A program made the translations under genes and the position numbers. From Luzula sylvatica (lineage: Eukaryota; Streptophyta; Magnoliopsida; Poales; Juncaceae): a stretch of DNA of 64,000 nucleotides. Under the pieces are notes generated by a model. It was not told the origin of the DNA, made no database searches, and saw nothing but the letters and a program-made list of their open reading frames with translations. Positions 4,642-63,823 of this stretch are shown here, one piece after another. Location of the stretch: positions 23,365,150-23,429,149 of the forward strand of contig OX326960.1 of assembly GCA_946800325.1 (NCBI GenBank). Direction: 5' to 3'. Position 1 is the stretch's first letter; each line of letters begins with the position of its first letter.

Positions 4642-4983
4642 TGTTGATCCAAATATCCTATGGTTTGATTATTTCAAAACACTGTCAATACTAACGTCTA
4701 CGTCAAGAAAAACGTGTAGGACAACACAGGTACAACGATCAAGGAAGATCAAGAGAAACACAAGGGAAGAACCGTCCAAGACAAAGAGACGAAAAGGAAG
4801 GCGAAGAAACGATTCAAGAATCAAGATGTCGAAGCCTTCCGTGAGATGTCGAAGCCTTCCGTGAGTTGGGATCACCACAAATAAACCTTAGGTAAACCCT
4901 AGTACATCTCACATTTATCAAGGTCAAAAGATAAACTCAAAACATGATGAAAATGGAATTTGGTAAACCATCACAACAGTAGG

Positions 4984-5217
4984 GGGTTCGTTCGAACTGA
5001 TCAAACTGTGCGTTCGAACGCACATGTTCGTTCTACATTAAAATTCAAAGCGTTCGAACTAACCTATCAAATAAACCTTGATCGTTCGAACGAACACCTT
5101 TGTTAGTTCGAACGAACCATCATGCATATGAAGAAATCTTTTGAAACGGCTAGTTCAAACTTGCAGTTCGTTCGAACACACCTCAGTGTCAGTTCGAACG
5201 AACTATGCGGTTTGTAC
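4984..5217. promoter_or_regulatory. Paired GTTCGAAC palindromes upstream of the LTR TATA box
   Basis: Perfect palindromes with core GTTCGAAC, often extended to GTTCGTTCGAAC or GTTCGAACGAAC, occur in pairs. The first and second cores of a pair start 22 bp apart in three pairs (near 4988/5010, 5094/5116 and 5170/5192). They lie 30-260 bp upstream of TATAAATAG. Palindrome arrays upstream of the core promoter are a known Sirevirus LTR trait. Enhancer function is inferred. Confidence 0.75.
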
Positions 5218-5244
5218 TCAAAATGAGGGTGTTTCTATAGATCA

Positions 5245-5253
5245 TATAAATAG
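5245..5253 (+). promoter_or_regulatory. TATA box of element A 5' LTR
   Basis: TATAAATAG lies downstream of the palindromes and about 550 bp before the primer site. The same motif is at 16176-16184 in the 3' LTR. Confidence 0.7.
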
Positions 5254-5806
5254 AACCCCTCATATTTTTCTCTCTTGCAGCTTTTCACAAAAATTCATTC
5301 AACATTCAAAAGAGAGAAAAACCTCTAGCCTTGATTTCCAAATCCCTTGATAGTTCGAGCTAAACCTCAAGATCATAGATCTATCTTCGAATCATCTATT
5401 CTAAACGATTCCCAACTCACGTGACCGATCACGTCGTAGTTCGTCTTAGAAACTTGTAATAGGCTAGTACTACGATTGTAAAGCCCGCCATAGATCGATA
5501 GAAAACGTGTAAATCGATCTTGGCAAAACCTTGTACGAGTGAGTTGGAATTCAATCGAAAGCCCAAAAGGCACAAGGCATTCCCAGAGACGTAGGTACTT
5601 GCAACTAATCGAATCGGTCGATTAAGCAAGTAAAGGGTGAGTTAAAGCAACTAATCAAACATTGTGTGTTCAATTGTTCGGTACTCTCTTCTCTATTTTA
5701 AATTACTTCAATTAACTTCCGCATCTATAATTGGTATACCGTAGTGAGAAAATTGTACACTAGGAATACCTATTCACCCCCCTCTAGGTTAGAATTAACC
5801 AAAAAT

Positions 5807-15513: not shown

Positions 15514-16756
15514 TGTTGATCCAAATATCCTATGATTTAATTATTTCAAAATACTGTCAATACTAACGTCTACGTCAAGAAAAACGTGTAGGACAACATA
15601 GGTACAACGATCAAGGAAGATCAAGAGAAACACAAGTGAAGAACCGTCCAAGACAAAGAGACGAAAAGGAAGGCGAAGAAACGATTCAAGAATCAAGATG
15701 TCGAAGCCTTCCGTGAGATGTCGAAGCCTTCCGTGAGTTGGGATCACCACAAATAAACCTTAGGTAAACCCTAGTACATCTCACATTTATCAAGTCAAGG
15801 TCAAAGGATAAACTCAAAACATGATGAAAATGGAATTTGGTAAACCATCACAACAGTAGGGGGTTCGTTCGAACTGATCAAACTGTGCTTTCGAACGCAC
15901 ATGTTCGTTCTACATTAAAATTCAAAGCATTCGATCGAACACCCTCCTGTGAATGTGAGAACCAAACACATTTTAATAGTTCGTTCGAACTCACCAAAGT
16001 GTTCGTTCGAACTAACCTATCAAATAAACCTTGACCGTTCGAACGAACCATCATGCATATGAAGGAATCTTTTGAAACGGCTAGTTCAAACTTGTAGTTC
16101 GTTCGAACACACCTCAGTGTCAGTTCGAACGAACTATGCGGTTTGTACTCAAAATGAGGGTGTTTCTATAGATGATATAAATAGAACTCCTCATAGTTTT
16201 CTCTCTTGCAGCTTTTCACAAAAATTCATTCAACATTCAAAAGAGAGAAAAACCTCTAGCCTTGATTTCCAAATCCCTTGATAGTTCGAGCTAAACCTCT
16301 AGATCCTAGATCTATCTTCGAATCATCTATTCTAAACGATTCCCAACTCACGTGACCGATCACGTTATAGTTCGTCTTAGAAACTTGTAATAGGCTAGTA
16401 CTACGATTGTAAAGCCCGCCATAGATCGATAGAAAACGTGTAAATCAATCTAGGCAAAACCTTGTACGAGTGAGTTGAAATTCAATCGAAAGCCCAAAAG
16501 GCACAAGGCATTCCCGGAGACGTAGGTACTTGCAACTAATCGAATCAGTCGATTAAGCAAGTAAAGGGTGAGTTAAAGCTACATAGCAACCACCTACCGA
16601 ACTTCGTAACAAATATTGTGTGTTCAATTGTTCGGTACTCTCTTCTCTATTTTAAATTACTTCAATTAACTTCCGCATCTATAATTGGTATACCGTAGTG
16701 AGAAAATTGTACACTAGGAATACATATTCACCCCTCTAGGTTAGAATTAACCAACA
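15514..16756 (+). repeat. Element A 3' LTR
   Basis: 1243 bp, starting TGTTGATCC and ending ACCAACA, then TSD TCGGC. Paired palindromes lie at 15861-16135 and TATAAATAG at 16176. It has one more palindrome block than the 5' LTR. Confidence 0.94.
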
Positions 16757-21460: not shown

Positions 21461-21465
21461 TCAAC

Positions 21466-22464
21466 TGATGGGGAATATCCCCGGCCCCGGGCCCGCGCAG
21501 CGGATATGTAGGCCCGGTCCGGTTCCCCGATTCCTGAGATCACGCCACGACTTCGAGGGTACGATGCAAATAGAAGGTTAGATCTTTACCGGTGCAAAAT
21601 TGATTGCACACGAAGGGTTGATCGCTGCCTTCTTTCTCCTGTCACGTTGGTGACAATACGCGCGTCCCACACCACGCGTCTTTCACCGCTCGTTGACTTC
21701 GCCGATTCGCTTGATTTCGTCTCCGACTCAATCTACTCGTCCGAATCGATCACAATCGTGAGAGCCTCAGTTGTTGCTCCTCTACGTGTATCCACCTTGA
21801 ATCGCAAGACGTCGGTCACGGATGCACCTGCCTAGACGATGCACCGGTGAACTTGCTTAATCGAATTGATTCTCTAAACCGTAAAACACCTTTTCACGGT
21901 TTCTCTCTTTTACACCTTTTCACTCTCTAGAAATTTGTCTCACAATTTTCTAGATAATTCTGAATGAATTGCTTAGTTAAGATGAGAGAGAAAATCCTAT
22001 TTATATACAATAGGATCAGGATTAGCCAAAAGGCATGTATATCCAATATACACCCTCTCACACAGAAAACTGCATGAACCTGGTCAGTATTCTGTCCAGA
22101 CGAAATTGATAAATTTCTCTGACAGAAAATCAACCAACACGAAAGTTGTAGATAATCTCATTATCTACTCGACCCAATTTGGCCCAGACCAATTGGAGTT
22201 CGTATGCAAAAGTTATGACTGTTTTACTAACTGTATGTCATACTGTTGCACCCTTTCGGTATTTCACAGAAACGACACTTATAATTCGTTCATCTGAAAT
22301 ATATTTCTACATGAAGGTTATAGATAATCTAATTATCTATCTTACCCAATTTGAACCATTCAAATCGGATTTTCCTACTGAAAGATATGGCTACGAATGT
22401 ACGACTACATTCGTTTATCCTTGTGTACACTTTTACGGTTGATCCTGAAACTGTATTTCCTTCA
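21466..22464 (-). repeat. Element B 3' LTR
   Basis: In element orientation it starts TGAAGGAAATACAG and ends in TTCCCC. The minus-strand TATATAAATAGG at 21996-22007 is a good TATA box. A GC-rich near-palindrome (GGCCCCGGGCCCGCGC) lies 15 bp inside the end. Confidence 0.94.
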
Positions 22465-26723: not shown

Positions 26724-27430
26724 AGACCCATAAGGCGTCTCAAAATTAACCTACTCTTTGAGCCGCATTGAGTCATTCAACGCGCTCTAGCTCTTGAAAC
26801 TATTTCATGAGCGTTGTGTTTTACTTTCATATACACCCGAATTCTCAAAACAATTTTGAGAAATTTGCGTCTATACATGCCACCACAAGGCACGTAATAT
26901 TGTTCGATTCCTTCTTAAGTTTATCGAACCCGGCTTTCTCTAAAGCCAAAGCCTCGAGCCCCGAATCTACCATTTCCGTGTCCAACACGTTCCTTTAAGT
27001 CTAAGAACTATTCTTTGACTATCAAGGTTAATAACGGTAATTCCGACCCAAAAGCCATCTATCATATCGATCTAATCGATATATTTGGTGTTGCTTGAAA
27101 ACATAATTCTAAACGGATGATGAAGATTAATTCCTAACCGTGCGTACTTAATCTATATGCTTATATGATAATTATATGATAGTGTTATTTTATCGAATCG
27201 ATAACCCTCATACCGATACGGGACTCCAAGTCCATAACACTCAAGATCCATATATCACGATCCTCCCATAAGTTGCTTTGGCAGACGAATGGGATCTCGC
27301 TATTTAGGTAGGATTATATCCAATCGCATCCAATGCGACTCTTGAACCTTTATAGGATTTCGGTGATGAATCGTATCCAATACAATCCCAGTTCCGTGTG
27401 TGCATCCTATCTATGCCCCGAACTTCCAAT

Positions 27431-27615
27431 CAAGTCGGCTTTGGCCTCAACCCTTACTGGCTTGAACGGTTAAGTCACAACCATACTCAGCGTATCGTTC
27501 AAATAAACTACTAATAAGTCGGCTTTGGCCTTAACCCTTATCAGTCCCTATTTAACGCTTGCCACCCCGTCGATGACTACAATAACCCATGTCGGCTTTG
27601 GCCTTAACCCATGTG
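27431..27615 (-). ncRNA. Three leader hairpins of element B, GGCC loop
   Basis: On the minus strand three copies of an identical or one-change 18-nt loop (GGTTAAGGCCAAAGCCGA) are flanked by short complementary arms: + strand loop positions 27435-27452, 27519-27536 and 27592-27609. The second has a 5-bp stem plus one more pair; the others have 3-4 bp. They are homologous to hairpins in C, D and E. Cis-acting RNA function is inferred. Confidence 0.5.
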
Positions 27616-27904
27616 AGACGTAGTACCGATCATAGTGGTTGTGAATATGGAAGGCATTTCCATGACTTAAATATTATGAGGGATCATGCCATTGCATGTT
27701 TCTAAATCCGTGACATAATCCAATTATATCACTATCACAAGATTTTCATAAATGCATATGTATTTATTTGGGAGTCTAATTATTCTAAATAATTATCTAA
27801 TTATATGCTAGTATGATTGATGCCGATCAAATCGATATAAAGAACTCAAAATTCCAAGTTGTGTAGCCAAAGTTATCACGAAAACAAAATCAGCAACCAG
27901 AAAC

Positions 27905-28357
27905 CAGTCCGTTGCAACGCAATATAGTCCGTTGCAACGGACCTCCTGTATACTTGGCACTCCGTTACAACGGAATACCAGTCCGTTACAACGCTATTTA
28001 TTCCGGAGTTTGGCCAAAATTGCCAGAAACATGTCCGTTGCAACGCAACATTGGTCCGTTACAACGCTATTTTCTGCAAACCTTTGTCCAAATTTCCAGA
28101 AACCTGTCCGTTACAACGCAACATATAGTCCGTTGCAACGGACAAAACTGCGTAGACATCCGTTATAACGGACCCAGTCCGTTACCACGGACTCCAATAG
28201 ACACCATTGGCATCCCCGCAACCCCGTATCTGATACAGGTTCCGTTACAACGGACTCCAAGTCCGTTGCAACGGAATATGCAGTTTTCACGGTCCTCCTC
28301 ACACCCCCGCATCCTATACAGGGTCCGTTACAACGGACACCAAGTCCGTTATAACGG
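27905..28357. promoter_or_regulatory. Array of paired CCGTTNNAACGG palindromes in the B leader
   Basis: Fourteen sites of the form CCGTT-2 nt-AACGG or AACGC (centres GC, AC, AT) begin near 27908, 27930, 27962, 27983, 28033, 28055, 28107, 28131, 28160, 28179, 28240, 28261, 28325 and 28346. They form seven pairs with 19-24 bp between starts. Each palindrome is two inverted AACGG words, the core of plant MSA/MYB-binding sites. Transcriptional function is inferred. Confidence 0.75.
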
Positions 28358-28619
28358 AATATGTGTTTTTTCGAAAAAATCTCAATTTTTGAACTGCTGT
28401 TTTCGCTCGTTTCCAAAACGATCAATCATGAAACCTTTTCACGATTATTCCTAGATACTCTCAATCAACTATTGATCGATCTCTAGCGAATTTCACTTGT
28501 GATTTTAATGGAATTTGACATTCTTAATATGTAACATCATGCAAACGGGTACGAACTTTGATAACCCGTGCGTATATCTAATATACGACTATGATTCGAC
28601 CCTCGAATCGATGGCGATC

Positions 28620-28631
28620 GCTCTGATACCA
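28620..28631 (-). other. Primer-binding site of B (tRNA-Met)
   Basis: The minus strand reads TGGTATCAGAGC, one base after the 5' LTR end. Confidence 0.92.
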
Positions 28632-28632
28632 C

Positions 28633-29631
28633 TGAAGGGGAATATCCCCGGCCCCGGGCCCGCGCAGCGGATATGTAGGCCCGGTCCGGTTCCCCGATTC
28701 CCGAGATCACGCCACGACTTCGAGGGTACGATGCAAATAGAAGGTTAGATCTTTACCGGTGCAAAATTGATTGCACACGAAGGGTTGATCGCTGCCTTCT
28801 TTCTCCTGTCACGTTGGTGACAATACGCGCGTCCCACACCACGCGTCTTTCACCGCTCGTTGACTTCGCCGATTCGCTTGATTTCGTCTCCGACTCAATC
28901 TACTCGTCCGAATCGATCACAATCGTGAGAGCCTCAGTTGTTGCTCCTCTACGTGTATCCACCTTGAATCGCAAGACGTCGGTCACGGATGCACCTGCCT
29001 AGACGATGCACCGGTGAACTTGCTTAATCGAATTGATTCTCTAAACCGTAAAACACCTTTTCACGGTTTCTCTCTTTTACACTTTTTCACTCTCTAGAAA
29101 TTTGTCTCACAATTTTCTAGATAATTCTGAATGAATTGCTTAGTTAAGATGAGAGAGAAAATCCTATTTATATACAATAGGATCAGGATTAGCCAAAAGG
29201 CATGTATATCCAATATACACCCTCTCACACAGAAAACTGCATGAACCTGGTCAGTATTCTGTCCAGACGAAATTGATAAATTTCTCTGACAGAAAATCAA
29301 CCAACACGAAAGTTGTAGATAATCTCATTATCTACTCGACCCAATTTGGCCCAGCCCAATTGGAGTTCGTATGCAAAAGTTATGACTGTTTTACTAACTG
29401 TATGTCATACTGTTGCACCCTTTCGGTATTTCACAGAAACGACACTTATAATTCGTTCATATGAAATATATTTCTACATGAAGGTTATAGATAATCTAAT
29501 TATCTATCTTACCCAATTTGAATCATTCAAATCGGATTTTCCTACTGAAAGATATGGCTACGAATGTACGACTACATTCGTTTATCCTTGTGTACACTTT
29601 TACGGTTGATCCTGAAACTGTATTTCCTTCA
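28633..29631 (-). repeat. Element B 5' LTR
   Basis: 999 bp, nearly identical to 21466-22464. It carries the unmutated terminus (TGAAGGGG on the + strand) where the 3' LTR has TGATGGGG. Confidence 0.94.
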
Positions 29632-45601: not shown

Positions 45602-46592
45602 TGAAGGAAATACAGTTTCGGATCAACCGTAAAAGTGTACACAATGATAAACGAATGTAAGCCTACATTCGTGGTCATATCTTTCAGTAGGAAAATCCAA
45701 TTTGAATGGTTCAAATTGGGTTAGATAGATAACAAGATTATCTACAACCTTCATGTAGAAATATATTTCATATGAACGAAGTATAAGTGTCGTTTCTATG
45801 AAATACCGAAAGGGTGCAACAATATGACATACAGTTAGTAAAACAGTCATAACTTTTGTATACGAACTCCAATTGGTCCAGCCCAAATTGGGTTGGGTAT
45901 ATAATACGATTATCTACAACTTTCGCGTAGGTTGATTGTCTGTCAGAGGAATTTACCAATTTCGTATGGACAAAATACAGAACAGATTCATGCAACTTTC
46001 TGTGTGAAAGAGTGTATATTGGATATACATGTCTTTTGGCCCATTCTAATCCTATGTGATATAAATAGGATAATTCTCTCTCATCAAAGAATGTTCATTC
46101 AGTCCAATCATTCGGATTATTCAGAATATTCCAGAATTATCGAGAGACATCTTTCTAGAGAGTGAAATGGTATAAAGAGAGAGAACCGAGAAAAGGAGTT
46201 TTCCGGTATAGAGAATCAATCGATCAAGCAAGTTCGCCAGTGCATCATCTAGGCAGTTGCACCCGCGATTGACGAACTCCGACTCACGGTGGATACAAGT
46301 AGAGGAACGACACTTGTGGCTCTTCGATTGTGATCAACCCGAAGGAGAAAGAGGACGGTCAACGACCGGTGAAAGACGCGTGGTGTGGGGACGCGCGGAT
46401 TGTCACCAACGTGACAGGAGAAAAAAGACTAGTAATCAACCCGTCGTGTGCAATCAATTTTGCACTGGTATGAATTTAATCTTCTTATTTGCATCGTACC
46501 CTTCGAAGTCATGGCGTGATCTTGGATTAAGGGAACCGGACCGGGCCTACATATCCGTTGCGCGGGCCCGGGGACGGAAAGAATTCCCAACA
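45602..46592 (+). repeat. Element C 5' LTR
   Basis: 991 bp. It includes the GC-rich near-terminal block (GCGCGGGCCCGGGGAC) seen in B and E, and a TATA-like ATAAATAGGAT near 46060. Confidence 0.9.
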
Positions 46593-46593
46593 G

Positions 46594-46605
46594 TGGTATC
46601 AGAGC
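46594..46605 (+). other. Primer-binding site of C (tRNA-Met)
   Basis: TGGTATCAGAGC, one base after the LTR. Confidence 0.93.
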
Positions 46606-46852
46606 GATCACCATCGATTCGAGGGTCGAATCATAGTCTTATATATGATATACGCACGGGTTATCAAAGTTCGTACCCGTTTGCATGATGTTACATATAG
46701 AGAAAGTCAAATTCCGTTAAAATCACAAGTAGAATTCCCTAGAGATCGATCAAAAGTTGATTGAGGGTATCTAGGAATGATCGTGAAATGGTTTCATGAT
46801 TGATCGTTTTGGAAACGAGCGAAAACAGACAAAACTGCAGAAAAATCGCATA

Positions 46853-48168
46853 GTCCGTTACAACGGACTAGTTGATCCGTTGTAACAGACACTGTATATG
46901 ATACAGGATAATCTGCCAAAATCGTATAGTCCGTTATAACGGACTGGTTGATCTGTTGTAACGGACACTGTATGAGATACAGAGAATTGGGGAAAATCTG
47001 CAAAAATCACATAGTCCGTTATAACGGACTGGTTGATCCGTTGTAACGGAACTTGTATACACTACAACATCTTTGCCTTATTGGGGCGGCAAAAAACCGA
47101 CCCAAAAAGACCCCAAAACCGTCCCTAAAGCTTATTGGGACGGTTGGCCGACCCTAACATACCGACCCTAAAGGTTGCGTTCCTAACAGGAGCGGGCCGA
47201 CCATATAGAGCTTATTGGGGCGGTTTGGTATTGGGGCAGGCCGACCCTACAAGACTAGTACACTTTTGACACTGCGGAAAGTACACTGTACTCCCGCGTC
47301 AGGCTTATTGGGGCGGCCTGACCCTAATACCTTATTGGGGCGGCCCGACCCTAATATTATATATTATTTATTATATATTATGTATTATATATTCTATATA
47401 TTCTATATAATTCTATATTCTATATTATAATATCATTTTTGTTTATATTTATATTTATATTATATATTAAAATGTTTATAGGGTCGGTGGTAATTTGGGG
47501 CAACGTGGGATTGAAAGAAGGGACACGAGTCAGGTTTTGGGTCGGTGGTAATTTGGGGCGGGCCATTACAATAGATTATAGGGTCGGGCAGCAGTAGGGG
47601 CGGGCGGTTACAATAGGTTGTAGGGTCGGTATGGATTGTAGGGACTGCCCGTTACAAACGTTTAGGGTCGGTAGGAAGGTTTAGGGACGGGCAGACCCTA
47701 AATTTTAAACCTATTGGGTCGGGCTGATCCTGAATTAACCGACCCTGATTTGTTATTGGGACGGCCAGACCCAATAACTGCACATATTTAGGGGCGGGCG
47801 GACCCTAAATTGCAGATGTGTTGTAGTGATAGGATACATGGATGTTAGGAGGACTGTGAATAAATGCATAGTCTGTTGTAACGGACATTGGTCCGTTGTA
47901 ACAGACCTTGTATGTGATACGAGGATGTGGGGATGCCTTTGGCTTCCCGTGAAGTCCGTTGTAACGGATATGATCCGTTATAACGGAGTTGTTCACGAGT
48001 TAGTCCGTTGTAACGGACCTAGGTTGCGTTATAACGGACATGTTTCTGGCAATTTTGGCCAATCTCCAAAATAAAATAGCGTTGTAACGGACATGTGTTC
48101 CGTTGTAACGGAGTAAAGGAATCTGGGGTTCCGTTGTAACGGACTAAGGTGCGTTACCACGGATTAGT
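46853..48168. promoter_or_regulatory. Array of paired CCGTTNNAACGG palindromes in the C leader
   Basis: Three pairs lie before and five after the CACTA insertion. Starts within a pair are 19-22 bp apart (e.g. CCGTTACAACGG then CCGTTGTAACAG). Same design as in B; the spacer phrase GATACAGG/GATGTGG between pairs is also shared. Confidence 0.75.
47060..47828. mobile_element. CACTA derivative, 769 bp
   Basis: Starts CACTACAACA and ends TGTTGTAGTG with the 3-bp duplication ATA (47057-47059, 47829-47831). It is composed almost wholly of GGGGCGG/GACCC subterminal repeats and an AT-rich core (47350-47470). The first 60 bp match the element at 1280 closely. It is inserted inside the palindrome array of C. 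Confidence 0.93.
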
Positions 48169-48450
48169 TTCTGTTTGCTGATTTTGTTTTCGTGATAACT
48201 TTGGCTACACAACTCAGAATTTTGAGTAATTTATATCGATATGATCGGCATCAATCATACTAGCATATAAGATTAGTATTTATTTGGAATAATTACTCTC
48301 CCTAATTAAATCATATGCATTTAGAAATCTTGTGATAGTGATATAATATGATTATGTCACGAATTTATTAAACATGAATGTCATGATCCCTCATAATATT
48401 TAAGTCGTGGAAATGCCTTCCATGTCCACATCCATCGAGATTGGTATGAC

Positions 48451-49086
48451 TGTAAGGTTACGCACACGTTTATCAAAGTGTGCAGCGGAATTAGTTTCGC
48501 ATGCGTAACCTAATTCTACCGGGATCACGCCTGAAAACCAACGAAAAAGGAAGAGTTTCGGAGAATTACCTCGTACAAGTTAGTACGTGACGCTTTCTTA
48601 TCCAAATCCGTGAACCTTCTCCAAGGAGTGCTTCTGCAATCCCTCTACTCGTGTGCACCTCGATTTCGTCCGATCGAAATCGCCCACATCGTTCTAGTCG
48701 CCGTCACGATCGATTCTCTCAAGATCTTTGCTCAAATCTCCCTCTCAATCTATCTAGATCTAATCTAGAATTCTGTGGAAGAAGGAGAGAGAAATGGCGG
48801 CTCAAAATCCTAAAACTCGAAAATTAGCTTAGGTTAAAACGAAATCAGAATTCTATATATATAGGAATTAAGTCAGTTCGAACGCACCTAAATGGTTCGT
48901 TCGAACGAGCCCAGTTCGTTCAAACGCACTTAAGTAGTTCGTTCGAACTAACCCAAATCTGACTGTCACGAATAAGTCCGTTCGAACGCACTCATATAGT
49001 TCGTTCGAACGAACCTAATTCTGACTGCAGAATTGCCTATTTATATAAATTCTTCCAAGTTAATTCTTAACCCATATTTTCTTTCA
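48451..49086 (-). mobile_element. Solo LTR of the element D family, antisense
   Basis: 636 bp. In its own orientation it starts TGAAAGAAAATATGG and ends CCTTACA, flanked by ATGAC (48446-48450, 49087-49091). Both ends match the D LTR (49710-50350), but the middle differs: here there are paired GTTCGAAC palindromes (48873-49015) that the D LTR lacks. Confidence 0.92.
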
Positions 49087-49091
49087 ATGAC

Positions 49092-49204
49092 ATAATGCGT
49101 GGTTTCAGGCCATAGTCGGGCACGTATTATTGTATGTATTGATGCGGGTGGTAAGCGTTAATTGGGGACTCACGTGGGTTCAGGCCATAGTCGAGCACGT
49201 GAGT
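49092..49204 (+). ncRNA. Two leader hairpins of element C, GGCC loop
   Basis: Hairpin 1: stem 49092-49101 with 49121-49130 (10 pairs, one G-T), loop 49102-49120 (GTTTCAGGCCATAGTCGGG). Hairpin 2: stem 49168-49176 with 49196-49204 (9 perfect pairs), loop 49177-49195 (GGTTCAGGCCATAGTCGAG). Both loops are 19 nt. The stems differ in sequence but both pair fully. Confidence 0.65.
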
Positions 49205-49235
49205 AGTTCAATTGAACAGTTACGTGTAGGGTTAA

Positions 49236-49709
49236 TTATATCAAAGTATTGTCTTTTTCACATACTAGGTATCCGTGAGATCACTCAAGTATGAAGAACT
49301 AAAACGCACTATCTGGATATGAGTTCATCTCCAATGACTCTAACCATGTTACAAACTCATATAGTGGTCAGTCCAATATACGACGCCGCGTATATCCATA
49401 TTCTAGAATCGACGCTACCGTCCCAGATCAGTAAAACCTGATCATCTCATCTACGAATATGCCAGTGTATGTAAAAGTCTCCATTCAGTGAATGGACTAC
49501 CTGGTTCAAACCTATGAACAACTTTATACACGAGGGACGTTTTAGAATTATATTCATTCCGTTTAGTGGTTTTACTATCATTCAATTGACGAATCAATAT
49601 GCCAGGCTATGGCCATGCAACATATTATTCTCAACTGACTCGATGCACTAAACTAGAATAAAATTCAAGGTCTATCCGATTATTATAATCGAATAACCTC
49701 TCACACACT
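49236..49709 (-). other. Inverted fragment of a D-type 3' UTR
   Basis: The inverse complement of 49380-49703 matches 56012-56336 with roughly ten differences. It joins the C leader on its left and the D 5' LTR on its right. No coding. Confidence 0.8.
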
Positions 49710-50350
49710 TGAAAGAAAATATGGCTTAAGAATTAACTTGGAAGAATTTATATAAATAGGCAGATCTGCAGTCATAATTGGGCCAGTTCATAAATCTGGG
49801 CCCGTTCAGAACTTAGGGTTTTAACCTAATAATTATGGTTTAAACTTTTTCGGGTCTATTCTGATAATTAGGCTTTTAACCTAATTTCGGCCTGTTAGGG
49901 TTTAACCTAATTTTGGTTTAACCTAACCCTGCCTATATATATATTCTGATTTTCATTTTTCTCTCTCTTCGAGCTCTCATTCTGAACCCTAATTCGGCTG
50001 CCGAATTTTCTCTATTTTTCACACAATACAAATTGACATCTGGATAGTTTGAGGAGAGAAATCTGAGCGAAAGTTTGAGAGAAATAATCATGACGTCGAC
50101 TAGAACTGCGTTGGCGGTTCCGATCAGACGAACATCAAGGTGGACACGAGTAGAGGGACTGCACGAGCAATCCTTGGAGAAGGTTCACGAATTTTGGAGA
50201 AGAAGTCGACACGTACTAACTTGTACGAGGTAAAAATCTGAACAACTCTTCCTTTTTCATGGTTTTTCGAACGTGATCCAGGTAGAATTAGGTTATACAT
50301 GTGTAAATAATTCTGCTGCACACATAAATAATCATATGTATAACCCTACA
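49710..50350 (+). repeat. Element D 5' LTR
   Basis: 641 bp from TGAAAGAAAATATGG to CCCTACA. Confirmed by the termini of the antisense solo LTR at 48451-49086 and by the primer site that follows. Confidence 0.85.
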
Positions 50351-50351
50351 G

Positions 50352-50363
50352 TGGTATCAGAGC
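50352..50363 (+). other. Primer-binding site of D (tRNA-Met)
   Basis: TGGTATCAGAGC, one base after the LTR. Confidence 0.93.
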
Positions 50364-50781: not shown

Positions 50782-51371
50782 TAAATACAGATTGCATTTG
50801 GAGTACAAAAGTTGAAATTTTTTTTTTTCTGTCGTTTGTTCGATCGAACTTGGAGTTGCGATCGTACGAACAAAATTCTGGACAACAAAAAAAAAATTTC
50901 TGTCAAAAATGCCCAATAATTTAAAAATTTTCAATTTATAAATTCGATTCGGTATAGCATATAGCCTAAAATGGGGATGATTGTTTGTGAATGTTTGTAT
51001 GTGTGTTGTGTGGGGGCCGGTGAGCTTTCCAAATTGTAAACTATTTTAATATGGGGACCGGTGAGTCTTCCAAAGTTGTAGTAGAATATGTTTGGTTTTG
51101 AAGAAGAACCTTCAAGGCAAGACGACACGACACGACACGAAGATTGGATCTTCAAGAAAAGCAAAAGATCATCATGGGTTTTAGGGTTGGGAATTTAGGA
51201 TTTTATGATTGCTCATAAAACTTAAAGGCCAATATGCTATACCGTAAATTTTATTTGTTTTGTGAATGAATAGAATTTAGAATTAAATGATTTTATAAAA
51301 GAAAATCCTCCCACGTAATTATCAAGTAATTTGCCTCCCAAAGTGGAACCTTCGAGACTAGTATTTGTTTA
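50364..51371 (+). other. Element D leader with degenerate AT-rich repeats
   Basis: The phrase AAATTAGATTTTCAGAATAT recurs about six times at 50385-50720. An A29 run lies at 50749-50777. A single palindromic pair (GTTCGATCGAAC and GCGATCGTACG) is at 50838-50875. No ORF. Confidence 0.7.
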
Positions 51372-51480
51372 TTTGTGTTGCATGGCCATAGTCTGGCACA
51401 GATTTACACGTACGTAGCATTGAAGGCATGCATTGATTAGGAGTTGACATGTTGCATGGCTTTAGTCTGGCATGTCAATT
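51372..51480 (+). ncRNA. Two leader hairpins of element D
   Basis: Hairpin 1: stem 51372-51377 with 51397-51402, 19-nt loop TTGCATGGCCATAGTCTGG. Hairpin 2: stem 51442-51451 with 51471-51480 (10 pairs, one G-T), 19-nt loop TTGCATGGCTTTAGTCTGG. They are placed like the hairpins of C and E. Confidence 0.65.
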
Positions 51481-51871
51481 CGCTAATTGAATGATACTCC
51501 ATTTGTGGTTTGGACTTGACCAATTAACTAGCTAGGCTAGTATTTGGGGCAAGGAGTGAGGTACACATACTCTGGTTTTGAGTTGGACTCAATACCAGAC
51601 CTCACGAATAAAGAAATAATCGTCTTGGAGATGATGGGACGCTGTCCTACCCGACGTGACGTATTTTCTGAGTGGTTGGCCATAGTCACCTTAGAAACAC
51701 GTTAAATAGGGATCTTGTCCATTACGAGATTTAAGGTATCAAATCTCCGTTTCAATAGTGGGGGCTATTTGAAATGATAAAATAATGGGTATTTCAAGTT
51801 GTTTAAAATGAATTTTAATATATGAAAGACCACGTTATTAATTACATTATTTTTCAAAAATTGTAGATTTC

Positions 51872-54800
51872 ATGGCTTTACCAAGTAATAACCGCTTTAG
51901 TTTACGTTCCATTTTGGAAAAAGGAACGAATGAACGGAAAGAACTTTCTCGACTGGCAGAGGAATCCGGGATTCGTTCTGAAACATGAAGGAAAGGCACA
52001 TGTCTTGGAGACGCCTATCCCTCCTGTGCCAGGGGATGACGCAACTGGGGATGCCATATTCGAATATACGACCATGATGGACGATTCGAATGATGTCACA
52101 TGCCTCATGTTGGCTACTATGACTCCTGAATATCAAATCCAGTTTGAGAAACAGGATGCATACGAGATTATGAAACAACTCAGGGAGATGTTTCAGGTTC
52201 AAGCAAGGGTGGAGAAGTATCAAGCTCTTGGCAATGCGACGCAATGCAAGATGCAAGAGGGTACGCCCGTTAGCTCGCATCTTCTCTAGATGAAAGGATA
52301 TTTCAATCATCTTGAGAGGCTTGGCATGAAATTCGAGGTGGAGTTACAAACTGATTTGATCATGTTGTCACTCCCACCGAGTTTCGATTCGTTCATTTCG
52401 CATTTCCACATGTCAGACATGAAAAGGACCATTCCCCAGCTTTTCGGAATGCTCAGAACATTCGAAAGTGACATGAAACCGCGGTACATGAAGTCTAGGA
52501 CTTCGGAGGTATTGGTGGTTCAAGGGAAGAGTCCAAACAATGGGAACAAGAACAAGAAGAGGAAGGCAAAGGGTAACAAGGTTGCGCCTAAGCCCGTGAG
52601 CAAGAAAGCCAAGAATGACAAGAAGTGTTTCCACTGCCTCAAGGAGGGACATTGGAAGCGTGATTGCGAGATCTTCCTGAGGGAGAGCAAGCAAAAGACC
52701 GCTTCCTTGGACACACCGGCATCAGGTATTTCTGTTATCGATTCTTATTTCTTTACTTCATCATCATGGGTGTTGGACACTGGATGTGGGACTCATATTT
52801 GTAATAATATGCAGGGCCAAAGAAGTAGAAGATTGTTGATTCGTGGTGAAGTTGATTTACGCGTCGGGAATGGAGCTCGAGTAGCAGCATTAGCCGAAGG
52901 GACGTATGATTTAACTTTGCCAAATGGATTTGTTTTAGTTTTGAATAATTGTTGTTATGTACCTACTTTGAGTAGGAGTATTATTTCTGTTTCGAGACTT
53001 ATTGCGGATGGATATGAATTAGTTATTGGTACTAATGATTGTTTTATTGGCAAGAATGACATTTTCTTTAGTAATGTTCTAGTTGAAAATGGTCTATATG
53101 TCTTGGATTTAGAAAATAACAAAAATAAACAGTCCATTTATAACATAAATACTACTCAAACTAATGAAACATACTCATGGCATTGTCGTCTCGGACACAT
53201 AAACGAGAAACGCATTGCTAGACTCCAAAAGGAAGGAGTGCTAGATTCTTTTGACTTAGAGTCAATAGAAAATTGCGAATCTTGTTTGATGGGTAAGATG
53301 ACAAAGACACCTTTCTCCAAAAAGGGAGAAAGATCGAAAGATGTGTTGGCTCTTATACATTCCGATGTATGTGGACCGATGAGTGTCGAGGCTAGAAATG
53401 GGTATCGCTACTTCGTGACATTTACTGACAATTATAGTAGATAAGGATATCTATACTTAATGCGTCACAAAAATGAAACTTTTGAGAAATTCAAAGAGTT
53501 TCAACACGAAGTAGAACTTCAACTGGGTAAGAAAGTAAAAGCCATTCGATCGGATCGAGGTGGTGAATACTTGAGCTATGAGTTTGAGGACTATCTTCGA
53601 GATTGTGGTATAGTATCACAATGGACTCCACCCGGTACACCCCAATGGAATGGAGTGTCTGAGAGGAGGAATCGGACTTTGTTAGACATGGTTCGCTCGA
53701 TGATGAGTCGAACGGATTTGCCAAAGTCATTTTGGGGTTTCGCGCTTCAAACGGCCGCTCATATACTGAATAGAGTTCCGTCCAAATCGGTTGAAAAGAC
53801 ACCATATGAATTATGGCATGGCAAGGTGCCACCATTGTCTTATCTTAAGATTTGGGGTTGCGAGGCATACGTCAAAAGGTTATTGACGGAAAAACTCGAG
53901 CCAAGATCAGACAAGTGTTTATTTGTGGGGTATCCTCAAGAAACAAGAGGATACTACTTTTACTTGCCTAGCGAAAACTAGGTTTTCGTGGCTCGGCGAG
54001 GACACTTCTTAGAGAAGGAATTCCTAGATCGTCAAGCCAGTGGGAGTAAAATTGATCTCGAAGAAATTCGAGAACCACAAAGTGAACAAGTTGATTTGGA
54101 ACAAGATTCTGAGTTACCATTGGATGGTGGACCAGAATCTAATACACAAGCAATACGTAGATCTGGTAGGATTCGTCAAGAACCTGAGAGATATGGATTT
54201 CTCATTAGTAATTATGATGATGAGTTGACTCTAGATGATGAGCCAACCTCCTACGAAGGTGCTATGCCTAGCTTGGATTCCTCGAAATGGCATGACGCCA
54301 TGAAAACCGAGATCCAGTCCATGTATGATAATAAGGTTTGGAATCCTATTGATCTACCTAATGGTGCTAAGACCGTTGGGTGCAAATGGGTTTTCAAGAA
54401 GAAAACCGACATGGATGGTAATGTACACACTTTTAAAGCAAGACTGGTGGCGAAAGGTTTTAAGCAAATTCATGGTATAGACTATGATGAAACGTTTTCT
54501 CCAGTAGCCATGTTTAAAAGTATTCGCATTCTTCTAGCGATAGCTGCATATCACGATTATGAGATATGGCAGATGGATGTCAAAACCGCTTTCCTTAACG
54601 GGAACCTTACCGAGAATGTGTATATGACACAACTCGAGGGTTTTGTCGATCCAAATAATACGAATAAAGTGTGCAAGCTTATGAGATCCATTTATGGATT
54701 AAAACAAGCATCTCGTGCGTGGAACATACGATTCGATGAGGTTATCGCAAAGTATGGTTTCATTCAAAATATCGAGGAACCTTGTGTATACAAGAAATTC

Positions 54801-55820: not shown

Positions 55821-56336
55821 ATTGGGTGTTTTATTTATATTTCTTATTGTATAAGGGGATTTGATCTGCCTAAGTGGGAGAACATTTATTATGCCCTAGG
55901 CGTGTTATTGGGATTGTATTTGTTTATGAGACAGATATTTATATTATTATTCATCATATGACCTAAACCTTCATATTTCAAAAAAAATTTAAAATAACAA
56001 GAAAGTATGTGAGAGGTTATTCGATTATAATAATCGGATAGACCTTGAATTTTATTCTAGTTTAGTGCATCGAGTCAGTTGAGAATAATATGTTGCATGG
56101 CCATAGTCTGGCATATTGATTCGTCAACTGAATGATAGTAAAACCACTAAACGGAATGAATATAATTCTAAAATGTCCCTCGTGTATAAAGTTGTTCATA
56201 GGTTTGAACTAGGTAGTCCATTCACAGAATGGAGACTTTTACATACATCGGCATATTCGTAGATGAGATGATCATGTTTTACTGATCTGGGACGGTAGCG
56301 TCAATTCTAGAATATAGATATACGCGGCGTCGTATA
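55821..56336 (+). other. Element D 3' UTR, cut by element E
   Basis: A PPT-like AAGTGGGAGAA is near 55873. The rest is non-coding and matches the inverted fragment at 49380-49703. It ends at the GTATA (56332-56336) that precedes E. Confidence 0.75.
56076..56129 (+). ncRNA. 3' UTR copy of the GGCC-loop hairpin
   Basis: The inner stem AATATG/CATATT (56087-56092, 56112-56117) carries the 19-nt loop TTGCATGGCCATAGTCTGG, identical to D leader hairpin 1. The outer stem CAGTTGA/TCAACTG (56076-56082, 56123-56129) extends it. Confidence 0.6.
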
Positions 56337-57399
56337 TGTTGGGAATTCACCCATCCCCGGGCCCGCGCAGCGGATAGGAAGGCCCGGTCCGGTTCCCTAA
56401 ATCCAAGATCACGCCATGACTTCGAGAGTACGATGGAAAGTAGGATAGACGATTACCAGCATGAAATTTATCACGCACGACGGGTTGATCGCTCGCATCC
56501 TTCTTTTCCTTCGGTGTCACGTTGGTGACTAGCCCGTACGTCCCATACCGTACGTCTCCCACCGTCTTGACACGCCTCGGGTTGTCTTCGTGCGTTCCAT
56601 GCCCGCATGCTTCCACAGCCCGTTACTCGATTCGCTCGTTTCCGTCTCCGGCAGATTTCGTTCCTCCGAATCGATCACAACCAAAAGAGCCCCAGATGTT
56701 GCTCCTCTACTTGTATCCACCTTGACTCGTAAGACCTCGGTCGCGGATGCAACTGCCTAGACGATGCACCGGCGAACTTGCTCGATTGATTGATTCTCTA
56801 TACCGGAAAACACCTTTTCACGGTTTCTCTCTCTTTACACCCTTTCTCTCTCTAGAAAGTTGTCTCACAATTCTCTGGAATATTCTGAATTAATTAACTG
56901 AATGAACCACACCAGATGAGAGAGAAAATTCCTATTTATATCATATAGGATTAGGATTGGCCAAAAGACATGTATATCCAATATACACTCTTTAACACAG
57001 AAAGTTGCATGTATCTGTCAAATATTCTGTCCATACGAAATTGGTAAATTCCTCTGACAGAAACTCACCCAACACGAAAGTTGTAGATAATCGTATTATC
57101 TACTCGACCCAATTTGGCCTGGCCCAATTGGAGTTCGTATGCAAAAGTTATGACTGTTTTACTAACTGTATGTCATACTGTTGCAGCCTTTCGGTATTTC
57201 ATATAAACGACACTGATACTTCGTTCATATGAAATATATTTCTATATGAAGGTTGTAGATAATCTTATTATCTATCTAACCCAATTTGAACCATTCAAAT
57301 TGGATTTTCCTACTGAAAGATATGACCACGAATGTACGCTTACATTCGTTTATCCTTGTGTATACTTTTACGGTTGATCCTGAAACTGTATTTCCTTCA
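56337..57399 (-). repeat. Element E 3' LTR
   Basis: 1063 bp, with + strand ends TGTTGGGAATTC and TTTCCTTCA. It is related to the B and C LTRs along its length. Confidence 0.93.
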
Positions 57400-61610: not shown

Positions 61611-62449
61611 TCGAATGCATATGATATTCGGTCACGAAGATCAAATCTCGTACCATCAACACACGAGTGTTAATCAAAGACCCATAAGGCGTCTCAGAAT
61701 TAATCTACGCTTTGAGCTGCATTGAACCATTCAATGCGCTCTAGCTCTTGAAACTATTTCTTGAGCGTTGCGTTTTACTTTCATATACACCCGAATTCTC
61801 AAAACAATTTTGAGAAATCTGCGTCTATACATGCCACCACAAGGCACGTAATATTGTTCGATTCCTTCTTAAAGTGTATCGAACCCGGCTTTATCTAAAG
61901 CCAAAACCTCGAGCCCCGAATCTACCATTTCCGTGTCCAACACGTTCCTTTAAGTCTAAGAATTATTCTTTGACTATCAAGGTTAATTACGGTAATTCCG
62001 ACCCAAAAGCCATCTATCATATCGATCTCATCGATATATATTTGGTGTTTGCTTGAAAACATAATTCTAAACGGATGATGAAGATTAAGCTCCTAACCGT
62101 GCGTACTTAATCTATATGCTTATATGATGATTATATGATAGTGTTATTTTATCGAATCGATAACCCTCATACCGATACGGGACTCCAAGTCCATAACACC
62201 CGAGATCCATATTTCGCAATCCTCCCACAAGTGACGAAGGCCTATCGAGTGGGATCTCGCTTATTTAGGTAGGATATAATTCAATCGCATCATATGCGAC
62301 TCTCGAACCTTTTAGAATTTCGGTGATGGATCGTATCACATACAATCCCAGTTCCGTGTGTGCATTCTAACTATGCCCCGAACTCCAATCGGATTGGCTT
62401 GGACGGTTAAGTCATAACCATATCAAACGTATCGTTCAAATGAACTACT

Positions 62450-62553
62450 CACGTGCATGACGAAGGCCTAGAAACACGTAAGTCCCCATTAAACGCTTGC
62501 CACCCATTAATACCATCAACATGTGTGCATGACGAAGGCCTAGAAACACACAT
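62450..62553 (-). ncRNA. Two leader hairpins of element E
   Basis: The loop on the minus strand, TTTCTAGGCCTTCGTCATG, is identical in both (62456-62474 and 62528-62546). Stems: CACGTG with CACGTA (5 pairs) and ATGTGTG with CACACAT (7 pairs). The stems differ although the loops are identical. Confidence 0.65.
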
Positions 62554-62759
62554 ATTGTGATACCAATTTCGATGGTTGATGATATGGAAGGCATTTCCAC
62601 GACTTAAATATTATGAGGGATCATGACATTCATGTTTAAATAATTCGTGATATAATCATATTATATCACTATCACAAGATTTCTAAATGCATATGAATTA
62701 TTTAGGGAGACTAATTATTCTAAATAATTAATTATCTAATATGCTAGTATGATTGAATT

Positions 62760-63811
62760 AATTGATTAGAGATAAAGATAGGCCTAAAGGTATGTATATC
62801 TCATATACACATTTTCAAACAGAAAACTGCATACACCCTTTCAGTAATCTGTCAGAACGAAAATGGTAAATTCCTCTGACAGAAAATCAACTAACACGAA
62901 AATTGTAGATAATCTTATTATCGTTCTAACCCAATTTGGCCCACCCCAAGTGGAGTTCGGACCCGAAAGTTACGGCCGTTTTACTGACTATATGTCAAAC
63001 TGTCGCACCCTTTCGGTATTTCATTAGAACAACACTGATACTTCGCTCAAATGAAATATATTACAACATGAAAGTTCTAGATAATCTTATTATCTAACTA
63101 ACCCAACTTGAACCATTCAAATCTGAGTTTCCTACTGAAAGTTATACCAGTTTTGGTAAAATACAGACAAACGAAAAGGTAAGTATATCCAATAGACACC
63201 TTTTCAACCAGAAAACTACAGACACCTTTTCAGTATTCTGTTGAAACGAAAATATTAAATTGTTCCAACCGACTTTGAACGTGAACGAAAGTTCTAGATA
63301 ATCTTATTATCTAACTAACCCAATTGGATTGGACTCAATTTGAGTTTCGATTCGACATCTACGGACGTTTTAGTCTCCGTATGTCAAACAGTCGCACCTT
63401 TTCAGTATTCCATAAAAACGACACTGATAATTCGTTCAAATGAAACAACTTTCTGTATCAAAGTCATAGATAATCTCATTATCTAACTACGCCAATTTGA
63501 TCCAATCAATTTGGAGTTTCCCACTGAAAATTATCTTAGTTTTACTCACTGTTTCGTATTCTAATTTTCTGCAGATTTTGCCGTTTCTTCCGTTTTCGCT
63601 CGTTTCTGAAACGATAAATCATGAAACCTTTTCACGATAATTCCTAGATACTCTCAATCAACTTTTGATTGATCTCTAGTGAATTCTACTTGTGATTTTT
63701 AACGAAATTGGAATCTCTAAATCTATCATCATGCAAACGGGTACGAACTTTGATAACCCGTGCGTATATCGAATATACGACTATAATTCGACCCTCGAAT
63801 CGATGGCGATC
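62760..63811 (-). other. Element E leader with repeated phrases
   Basis: In place of the palindrome array of B and C, this leader has three or four copies of a block containing GATAATCTTATTATC, CCCAATTTG, TCGCACC(C)TTTCGGTATT and CTACTGAAAGTTAT, spaced about 180-240 bp. The same phrases occur in the LTRs (e.g. 57090-57310), so the leader grew by duplicating LTR-type sequence. Confidence 0.6.
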
Positions 63812-63823
63812 GCTCTGATACCA
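63812..63823 (-). other. Primer-binding site of E (tRNA-Met)
   Basis: TGGTATCAGAGC on the minus strand, one base from the 5' LTR. Confidence 0.92.

Follow-up and report, generated by a model that had tools for sequence, protein, structure and literature searches.

Which step in the life of a retrotransposon is served by a hairpin that recurs in the leaders of several neighbouring elements, with much the same apex on differing stems? The question is raised by a 64,000-nucleotide stretch of Luzula sylvatica contig OX326960.1 (the window), whose DNA is plant-like and includes several Ty1/copia elements. The original prediction, made from the letters of the window, described two or three hairpins in each of several leaders and proposed that a self-complementary GGCC in their loops serves dimerisation or packaging of the genomic RNA. 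Here we examine the reality of these hairpins, the likely fold of their apices and the roles that they may play.

Ty1/copia elements of the window and their leader hairpins

Self-comparison and primer sites delimited the elements A to E, together with two D-like leader fragments, F and G (Table 1). The pol stretch of D matches RVT_2, and among the 120 relatives listed of 7,957 those that are named are mostly plant proteins (Hibiscus, Centaurea and others), one being labelled Acinetobacter. The two LTRs of B are 99.4% identical to each other, B and E are sister elements with 88.5% identity across 6.5 kb, and C is close to both by its LTR and leader. The leader of C is broken by an interruption at about 48450-49087 and diverges past about 49230. 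The 335-nt pieces of F and G, 96.7% identical, form an inverted pair flanking D, and the fact that the F piece ends at the E LTR suggests an E insertion there.

The primer-binding-site sequence TGGTATCAGAGC lies upstream of the hairpins in B, C, D and E. The gag reading frames of B and E are interrupted by stops, and in C a primer site is present upstream but gag was not found. The claim that the hairpins stand between primer site and gag is borne out for B, D and E, with a gag ATG that is probable in each, and element A has no hairpin core in its short leader. Some of the leaders hold further repeats. Between primer site and hairpins, the E leader carries two LTR-like copies (62771-63145 and 63174-63529) that resemble 22014-22388 of the B LTR. 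Three to five more hairpins, of the type CCGTTRYAACGGACTNG...CCGTTGTAACGG, lie 3' of the primer site in B (about 27900-28380, minus strand) and C (46850-47040), and at about 47680-47780 the C leader contains GGGACGGGCAGACCC and GGGACGGCCAGACCC with differing flanking stems.

Fourteen hairpins were placed in six leaders or fragments, 13 of them selected by the pattern GGC-N4-GYC and B4 by its position in the B/E alignment. Leader hairpins are present as described, and their number is larger than two or three, distal copies in D, E and B bringing it to as many as four per element. Their stems were predicted with mixed accuracy. For C (49092-49204) the description was exact, GUUUCAGGCCAUAGUCGGG being enclosed by 10 pairs and GGUUCAGGCCAUAGUCGAG by 9. 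In D (51368-51485) the hairpins are present with 9 and 13 pairs, G.U included, in place of the 6 and 10 given. Those of E (62441-62556) have 12 and 10 contiguous pairs on the sense strand in place of 5 and 7; the antisense rule yields 7 and 5, and the earlier figures for E seem to have been taken from that strand. The B hairpins (27420-27619) exist, and the weakness ascribed to their stems applies to B1 and B3 (4 pairs) and not to B2 (9 pairs).

Table 1. Elements, primer-binding sites, probable gag starts and leader hairpins in the window
Feature	Position	Strand	Basis or remarks
Element A	LTRs near 4642-5802 and 15514-16754; primer site 5807	+	self-comparison, primer sites
Element B	LTRs 21464-22464 and 28631-29631	-	self-comparison, primer sites
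Element C	5' LTR near 45602-46594	+	self-comparison, primer sites
Element D	primer site 50352, probable gag ATG 51872, pol to 55820	+	self-comparison, primer sites
Element E	3' LTR near 56337-57399; extends beyond window	-	self-comparison, primer sites
F, D-like leader fragment	56003-56337	+	self-comparison
G, D-like leader fragment, inverted	49376-49710	-	self-comparison
B primer-binding site	28620..28631	-	
C primer-binding site	46594..46605	+	
D primer-binding site	50352..50363	+	
E primer-binding site	63812..63823	-	
B probable gag ATG	27056..27058	-	likeness to D
D probable gag ATG, ATGGCTTT	51872..51874	+	frame broken soon afterwards
E probable gag ATG	62011..62013	-	likeness to D
B1 (hp1)	27577..27619	-	weak upper stem above longer basal stem; 4 contiguous pairs; R1 E 0.89
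B2 (hp2)	27504..27546	-	9-bp stem; R1 E 0.015
B3, extra, without E counterpart	27420..27462	-	B/E alignment; 4 contiguous pairs
B4, distal	27265..27293	-	CCCAU/AUGGG, ministem UGC:GCA, loop CAAA; folding z -3.05
C1 (hp1)	49092..49135	+	10-bp stem, ministem GGC:GUC, loop CAUA; R1 training row
C2 (hp2)	49167..49210	+	9-bp stem; R1 training row
D1 (hp1)	51368..51411	+	9 contiguous pairs incl. G.U; R1 training row
D2 (hp2)	51442..51485	+	apex GGCU instead of GGCC; 13 contiguous pairs incl. G.U; R1 training row
D3 (hp3), distal	51663..51704	+	8-bp stem; R1 E 0.071, R2 E 0.0038, untrained in both
E1 (hp1)	62513..62556	-	12-bp stem; R1 E 1.9e-6, untrained
E2 (hp2)	62441..62484	-	10-bp stem; apex identical to that of E1; R1 E 2.1e-7, untrained
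E2, extended domain	62433..62495	-	conserved "linker" is the lower stem; RNAalifold columns 84-146
E3 (hp3), distal	62224..62253	-	CCCAC/GUGGG, loop CUUC; 6-bp stem
F2 (hp2)	56083..56126	+	in D-like leader fragment; R1 E 1.5e-8, untrained
G2 (hp2)	49587..49630	-	in inverted D-like leader fragment; R1 E 1.3e-7, untrained

The hairpins share a common plan and a regular spacing. From core to core, hp1 and hp2 are 73 (B), 75 (C), 74 (D) and 72 (E) nt apart, and hp2 and the distal hairpin 247 (B, with B3 in between), 220 (D) and 226 (E) nt. In place of a conserved loop of 18-19 nt, folding predicts an asymmetric internal loop surmounted by a 3-bp stem of GGC with GYC, which closes a loop of 4 nt, so that hp1 and hp2 comprise an outer stem, an internal loop of 6 nt on one side and 2-3 nt on the other, the predicted ministem and the 4-nt loop. 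Outer and inner stems are present together in 12/14 RNAfold centroids and 13/14 minimum-free-energy structures, the weak cases being B1, whose basal stem appears in the whole-leader fold, and B3, whose outer stem is missing from the isolated fold. At the position of B3, E has a short CCAAUC/GAUUGG hairpin, as though B had acquired an apex module above such a hairpin. Folding z-scores of single hairpins are modest, at or below -2 in 5/14 (D2, -3.87) and above zero for E3 (0.05) and B1.

Pairing and covariation of the stems

Contiguous pairs were counted in the 14 hairpins with geometry limited relative to the core. Their own arms form 118 such pairs, as against at most 96 in 20,000 permutations of the 3' arms, and against shuffled flanks, the comparison suggested at the outset, the same 118 stand beside a mean of 47.7 (sd 5.6, maximum 69 in 2,000). 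With G2 dropped as a near-duplicate of F2, the remaining 13 hairpins have 109 pairs against a permutation maximum of 94. Matches to a degenerate pattern in 88 IMG/VR contigs, taken as chance, served as a stem control: stems of at least 8 pairs flank 3/87 such occurrences of GGTTNAGGCCANAGYCGR (two of them identical), compared with 10/14 in the window. The core itself is concentrated in the leaders, AGGCCNNNGYC occurring 8 times where 0.80 is expected, with all eight in the B, C and E leaders, and GGCYNNAGYC 13 times against 1.81 (sd 1.35), three of these lying outside leaders.

The original prediction that the stems vary and yet remain paired was upheld in a MAFFT alignment of 11/14 hairpins (A3), which has one gap, in the three B rows, and from which the three distal hairpins were omitted owing to the unequal length of their internal loops. 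Under the stated structure, paired cells make up 92.4%, against 74.0 (sd 2.7) after shuffling, and two-sided changes affect 8/12 pairs (28 cells) and 8/9 outer pairs, in counts that related rows inflate. Shuffled alignments have 5.6 such pairs on average and 19/500 reach 8, which makes the count less striking than the covariation score of 0.620, compared with 0.268 (sd 0.043) for shuffled alignments, none of 500 scoring as high, and a slid maximum of 0.161. All of this comes from one window and effectively two element groups, B/C/E and D/F/G. The plainest single comparison, B2 with E2, contains four outer pairs with two-sided changes, five unchanged and none broken, and in the extended domain of E2 the lower-stem pair 92-137 has likewise changed on both sides relative to B. 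Comparisons involving B1 have three broken pairs each, and B1 and D1 show broken pairs in several comparisons.

Covariance models carried the signal to hairpins outside their training sets. A model trained on C1, C2, D1 and D2 alone (R1) finds the untrained F2, G2, E2 and E1 at E 1.5e-8 to 1.9e-6, with weaker matches to B2 (0.015), D3 (0.071) and B1 (0.89) before the first non-leader matches at 1.4; it misses B3, B4 and E3 at E<=10. A second model, R2, built from all 11 hairpins of A3 and thus including B3, detects D3, absent from its rows, at E 0.0038; B4 and E3 escape it at E<=10.

The strand on which the stems pair best is that of the element transcript. B and E have their hairpins on the minus strand, matching the orientation of the elements themselves, and in the 13-hairpin set the sense strand gives 109 pairs against 70 for the antisense. 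An antisense reading was rejected on this difference; its total still exceeds its own permutations (maximum 64). Outer-stem wobble cells in 11 hairpins number 9 G.U and 0 A.C, by which DNA-level palindromes are disfavoured, and the inner stem adds 7 further G.U, though the search pattern admitted only C or T there. Together, these features of sequence and predicted fold show the hairpins to be real and apparently selected as sense-strand RNA of the element.

How far the hairpin extends beyond these elements was assessed against known RNA families and outside copia loci. Rfam 15 gave no match at gathering score in the whole window and none at E<=1 for the D and E leader stretches. Neither R1 nor R2 has a match at E<=10 in 13 copia loci (L001-L013; 70,428 bases) from one scan of GTDB contigs, of which L003 and L004 reach the primer site and L001 extends about 1.3 kb before a gag-like frame, while the other ten may not reach the leader; the lack of matches indicates that the hairpin element is not general among copia elements. 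The copia pol genes of these loci stand in assemblies whose labels include Streptomyces, Solirubrobacter and Bradyrhizobium, presumably by eukaryotic contamination. A search with gag returned 4 proteins and no DNA, and IMG/VR yielded no relatives by reverse transcriptase protein, reverse transcriptase alignment or two exact patterns. At L004:2765-2985 two hairpins 182 nt apart have a common apex, CAAACGTTGG, and two two-sided stem changes by eye, and possibly follow the same principle with a different apex. Repeated-apex hairpins in L001 and L004 were not accepted as a likeness, L001 being an AT-rich tandem repeat and L004 having only two copies.

The apex and its change between elements

At the apex, GGC stands opposite GYC across four bases in 13/14 hairpins, and UGC stands opposite GCA in B4. 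The Y of GYC is C in B1-B3 and G2 and U elsewhere, with pairing retained throughout. The ministem has a predicted pair probability of at least 0.79 in 9/11 isolated hairpins, falling to 0.26 in B1 and 0.08 in D1, and D1 forms the predicted ministem when slightly more flanking context is given. In these predicted structures GGCC is mostly one half of the ministem plus one loop base and not an open loop. Since 13/14 hairpins were chosen by GGC-N4-GYC, B4 alone is a free test of ministem capacity, which all 14 possess, and since the inner three pairs are near-invariant and lie within the search pattern, the ministem is more a prediction than a covariation result. Its support is mainly thermodynamic, plus B4, in which one ministem pair (U-A, against G-C in E3) and one outer pair (U-A against C-G) are changed on both sides.

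This predicted closure bears directly on the kissing-loop reading, in which the apical GGCC would pair with the GGCC of a second genomic RNA, as retroviral dimer initiation sites do, and which we regard as unlikely. GGCC is present in 12/14 apices, and the hairpins resemble retroviral dimer initiation and psi stem-loops in leader position and in the self-complementary apices of D (except D2), E, F and G; palindromes measured by eye reach 8 nt in D1, F2 and G2 and 6 nt in D3 and E1-E3. Against this, the palindrome is lost in D2 (GGCU) and B4 (UGCC) and is merely 4 nt long in B1-B3 and C, so that self-complementarity of about 6 nt or more is confined to D1, D3, E1-E3, F2 and G2, to the exclusion of B, C and D2. 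Moreover, the hairpins differ from the retroviral site in forming a repeated array with GGC predicted to close onto GYC, and exposure of a self-complementary loop is not predicted in 9/11 isolated hairpins. When four of 11 apices were compared with 500 composition shuffles each, one exceeded them: self-duplexes as strong as that of B1 arose in a fraction of 0.006, compared with 0.84 for C1, 0.23 for D1 and 0.20 for E1. Apex duplexes within elements (-13.8 kcal/mol) are also hardly better than those between elements (-12.5 kcal/mol). An open GGCC palindrome was therefore set aside as a common rule, being inconsistent between elements, and as a kissing loop it is weakly supported. Of the kissing-loop mechanism there remain the 6-8-nt palindromes of most D-, E-, F- and G-type apices, for which in particular kissing via GGCC is possible. 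The GGCT of the second D loop does differ from GGCC as first noted; it need not be an exception, for the ministem can still form.

A precedent for interacting apices exists in excerpts of a study of the Ty1 leader, where the kissing hairpins SL1a and SL3a of the TIPIRT domain have apices that matter for retrotransposition and RNA stability (PMC5454406). Ty1 is likewise a copia-type element with functional leader hairpin apices; as described in those excerpts, two different apices are complementary inside a pseudoknot (PMC5454406), whereas the leaders here carry between two and four apices that are nearly alike and are predicted to contain a ministem. A long-range partner for the apex was also sought. 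The B apex has its best complementary stretch, of 14 nt, close to the gag start (26940-26953, minus strand, G.U allowed), compared with 9-12 nt in 10 shuffled apices; the E version of this site has one base changed and does not fit E's own apex. A non-matching pair, the C apex in D, also reaches 14 nt, which leaves such a partner unsupported.

The apices change as sets. Apex identity is 0.95 within elements (6 pairs) and 0.59 between them (49 pairs), while stem identity is 0.45 and 0.48, respectively. The identical loops on differing stems first noted in E hp1 and hp2 are confirmed as regards the apex. The 4-nt loop is CAUA in C, F, G and D (one UUUA), CAAA in 4/4 B hairpins and CUUC in 3/3 E hairpins. 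Between the sisters B and E, 30/58 positions differ in the three shared apices, as against 35/408 in non-hairpin leader (Fisher p 5e-14). Stem differences amount to 30/57 in hp1 with its base, 8/20 in hp2 and 1/21 in the lower stem of hp3, so that hp1 and hp2 are altered in stem and apex and hp3 nearly only in the apex; with the hp1 and hp2 stems diverging too, the change is not confined to the apices. Among aligned 250-nt pieces, the one with hp1 and hp2 is the least conserved between B and E (71.0%), compared with 96.5% at the gag start and 97.2% and 96.0% in two pol pieces; pieces farther up the leader aligned partly or not at all. Because CAUA is common to C and D despite the closeness of C to B and E, it is probably ancestral, B and E having each probably switched all their copies.

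What the leader hairpins may do

Selection of the genomic RNA is the most likely role of the leader hairpins, as judged from sequence. A multivalent array for protein binding would fit the recurrence of one apex, the freedom of the stems, the regular intervals and the location, with the primer site on one side and gag on the other. Since genomic RNA must be picked by Gag/nucleocapsid, this protein is the obvious candidate ligand, and its selection of genomic RNA is established in retroviruses and Ty1. We give an even chance to the specific model in which the array offers the Gag of its own element several docking points specific to that element. In such a mechanism the apex would be a repeated docking site for one ligand, likeliest the element's own Gag/nucleocapsid, and docking would cause full-length genomic RNA to be picked for packaging, perhaps as a dimer. 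A shift in the preference of the ligand would then shift the apex set jointly, and related elements in one cell would stay apart. The stronger form of this model, an RNA identity code in which each element's apex type is read by its own Gag, the set switches when elements diverge and sisters cease to be co-packaged, is put forward tentatively and is rather less probable.

Related suggestions appear in part in the literature. In excerpts of the Ty1 study, the authors suggest that Ty1/Ty2 divergence in the leader could impede co-packaging (PMC5454406). Excerpted work on BARE1/BARE2 mentions "conserved dimerization and packaging signals" in a plant copia, retained in the parasitic BARE2 (PMC3735527); the plant copia setting and the supposed packaging role are shared with the leader hairpins. 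Sirevirus motifs lie near the env gene and upstream of the TATA box in the LTR and have been likened to transcriptional activators (PMC2829016). Like the leader hairpins, they are conserved, recur within plant copia elements and have dyad symmetry; they differ in that covarying stems are not described in the excerpts concerned (PMC2829016). Packaging is mentioned in a 2025 review of plant host factors, from whose excerpts the terms "dimer", "encapsid" and "stem-loop" are absent (PMC12786077). Excerpts of papers on Triticeae template switching (PMC1950507) and wheat autonomous/non-autonomous pairs (PMC9744471) contain no description of the hairpin, and those of a report of new plant structured RNAs (PMC12218528) do not mention retrotransposon, LTR or copia. 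The hairpin is likewise undescribed in the titles and abstract openings of the literature matches listed, a set in which subscription journals are thinly covered.

Beyond kissing loops, two further explanations are each improbable, to a similar degree. The array may control translation or RNA fate, arranging the long leader so that ribosomes reach gag by shunting, internal entry or a switch between translation and packaging. Such a function would be in keeping with the similar distances from hp2 to the probable gag ATG (472 nt in B, 414 in D and 455 in E) and with the strong structure of the D leader (z -4.99 for leader stretches of 513-596 nt), but the B and E leaders exceed their shuffled versions in folding stability only moderately (z -1.95 and -1.69), and the likeness of apices within an element and their concerted change would be left unexplained. 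Alternatively, the pattern may be a ligand-free product of mutation, in which short-patch template switching from hairpin to hairpin during reverse transcription homogenises the apices and hairpin-templated correction keeps the stems complementary. The apices are indeed the main stretch common to the hairpins of one element and change jointly; against this process stand its need for repeated tracts of about 19 nt, the spacing kept across element groups and the outer-stem wobbles, whose bias to G.U suits RNA selection better than DNA correction. That the hairpins feed plant silencing as miRNA-like precursors, or act as decoys, is very improbable: E1 with its basal stem exceeds 20 pairs in the whole-leader fold, but most stems have 4-13 contiguous pairs, short for Dicer-like substrates, and vary freely, the conserved part being the apex.

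In summary, the reading that we favour, selection of the genomic RNA through a repeated leader hairpin, concerns a step that seems little known in plant LTR retrotransposons. The covarying repeated hairpin offers a concrete sequence for Gag-binding tests, and if the apices of close relatives switch in concert, parasitism and co-packaging between families could be measured. If the identity code were true, these hypervariable hairpins amid an otherwise conserved leader would represent a fast-evolving system of self/non-self packaging.
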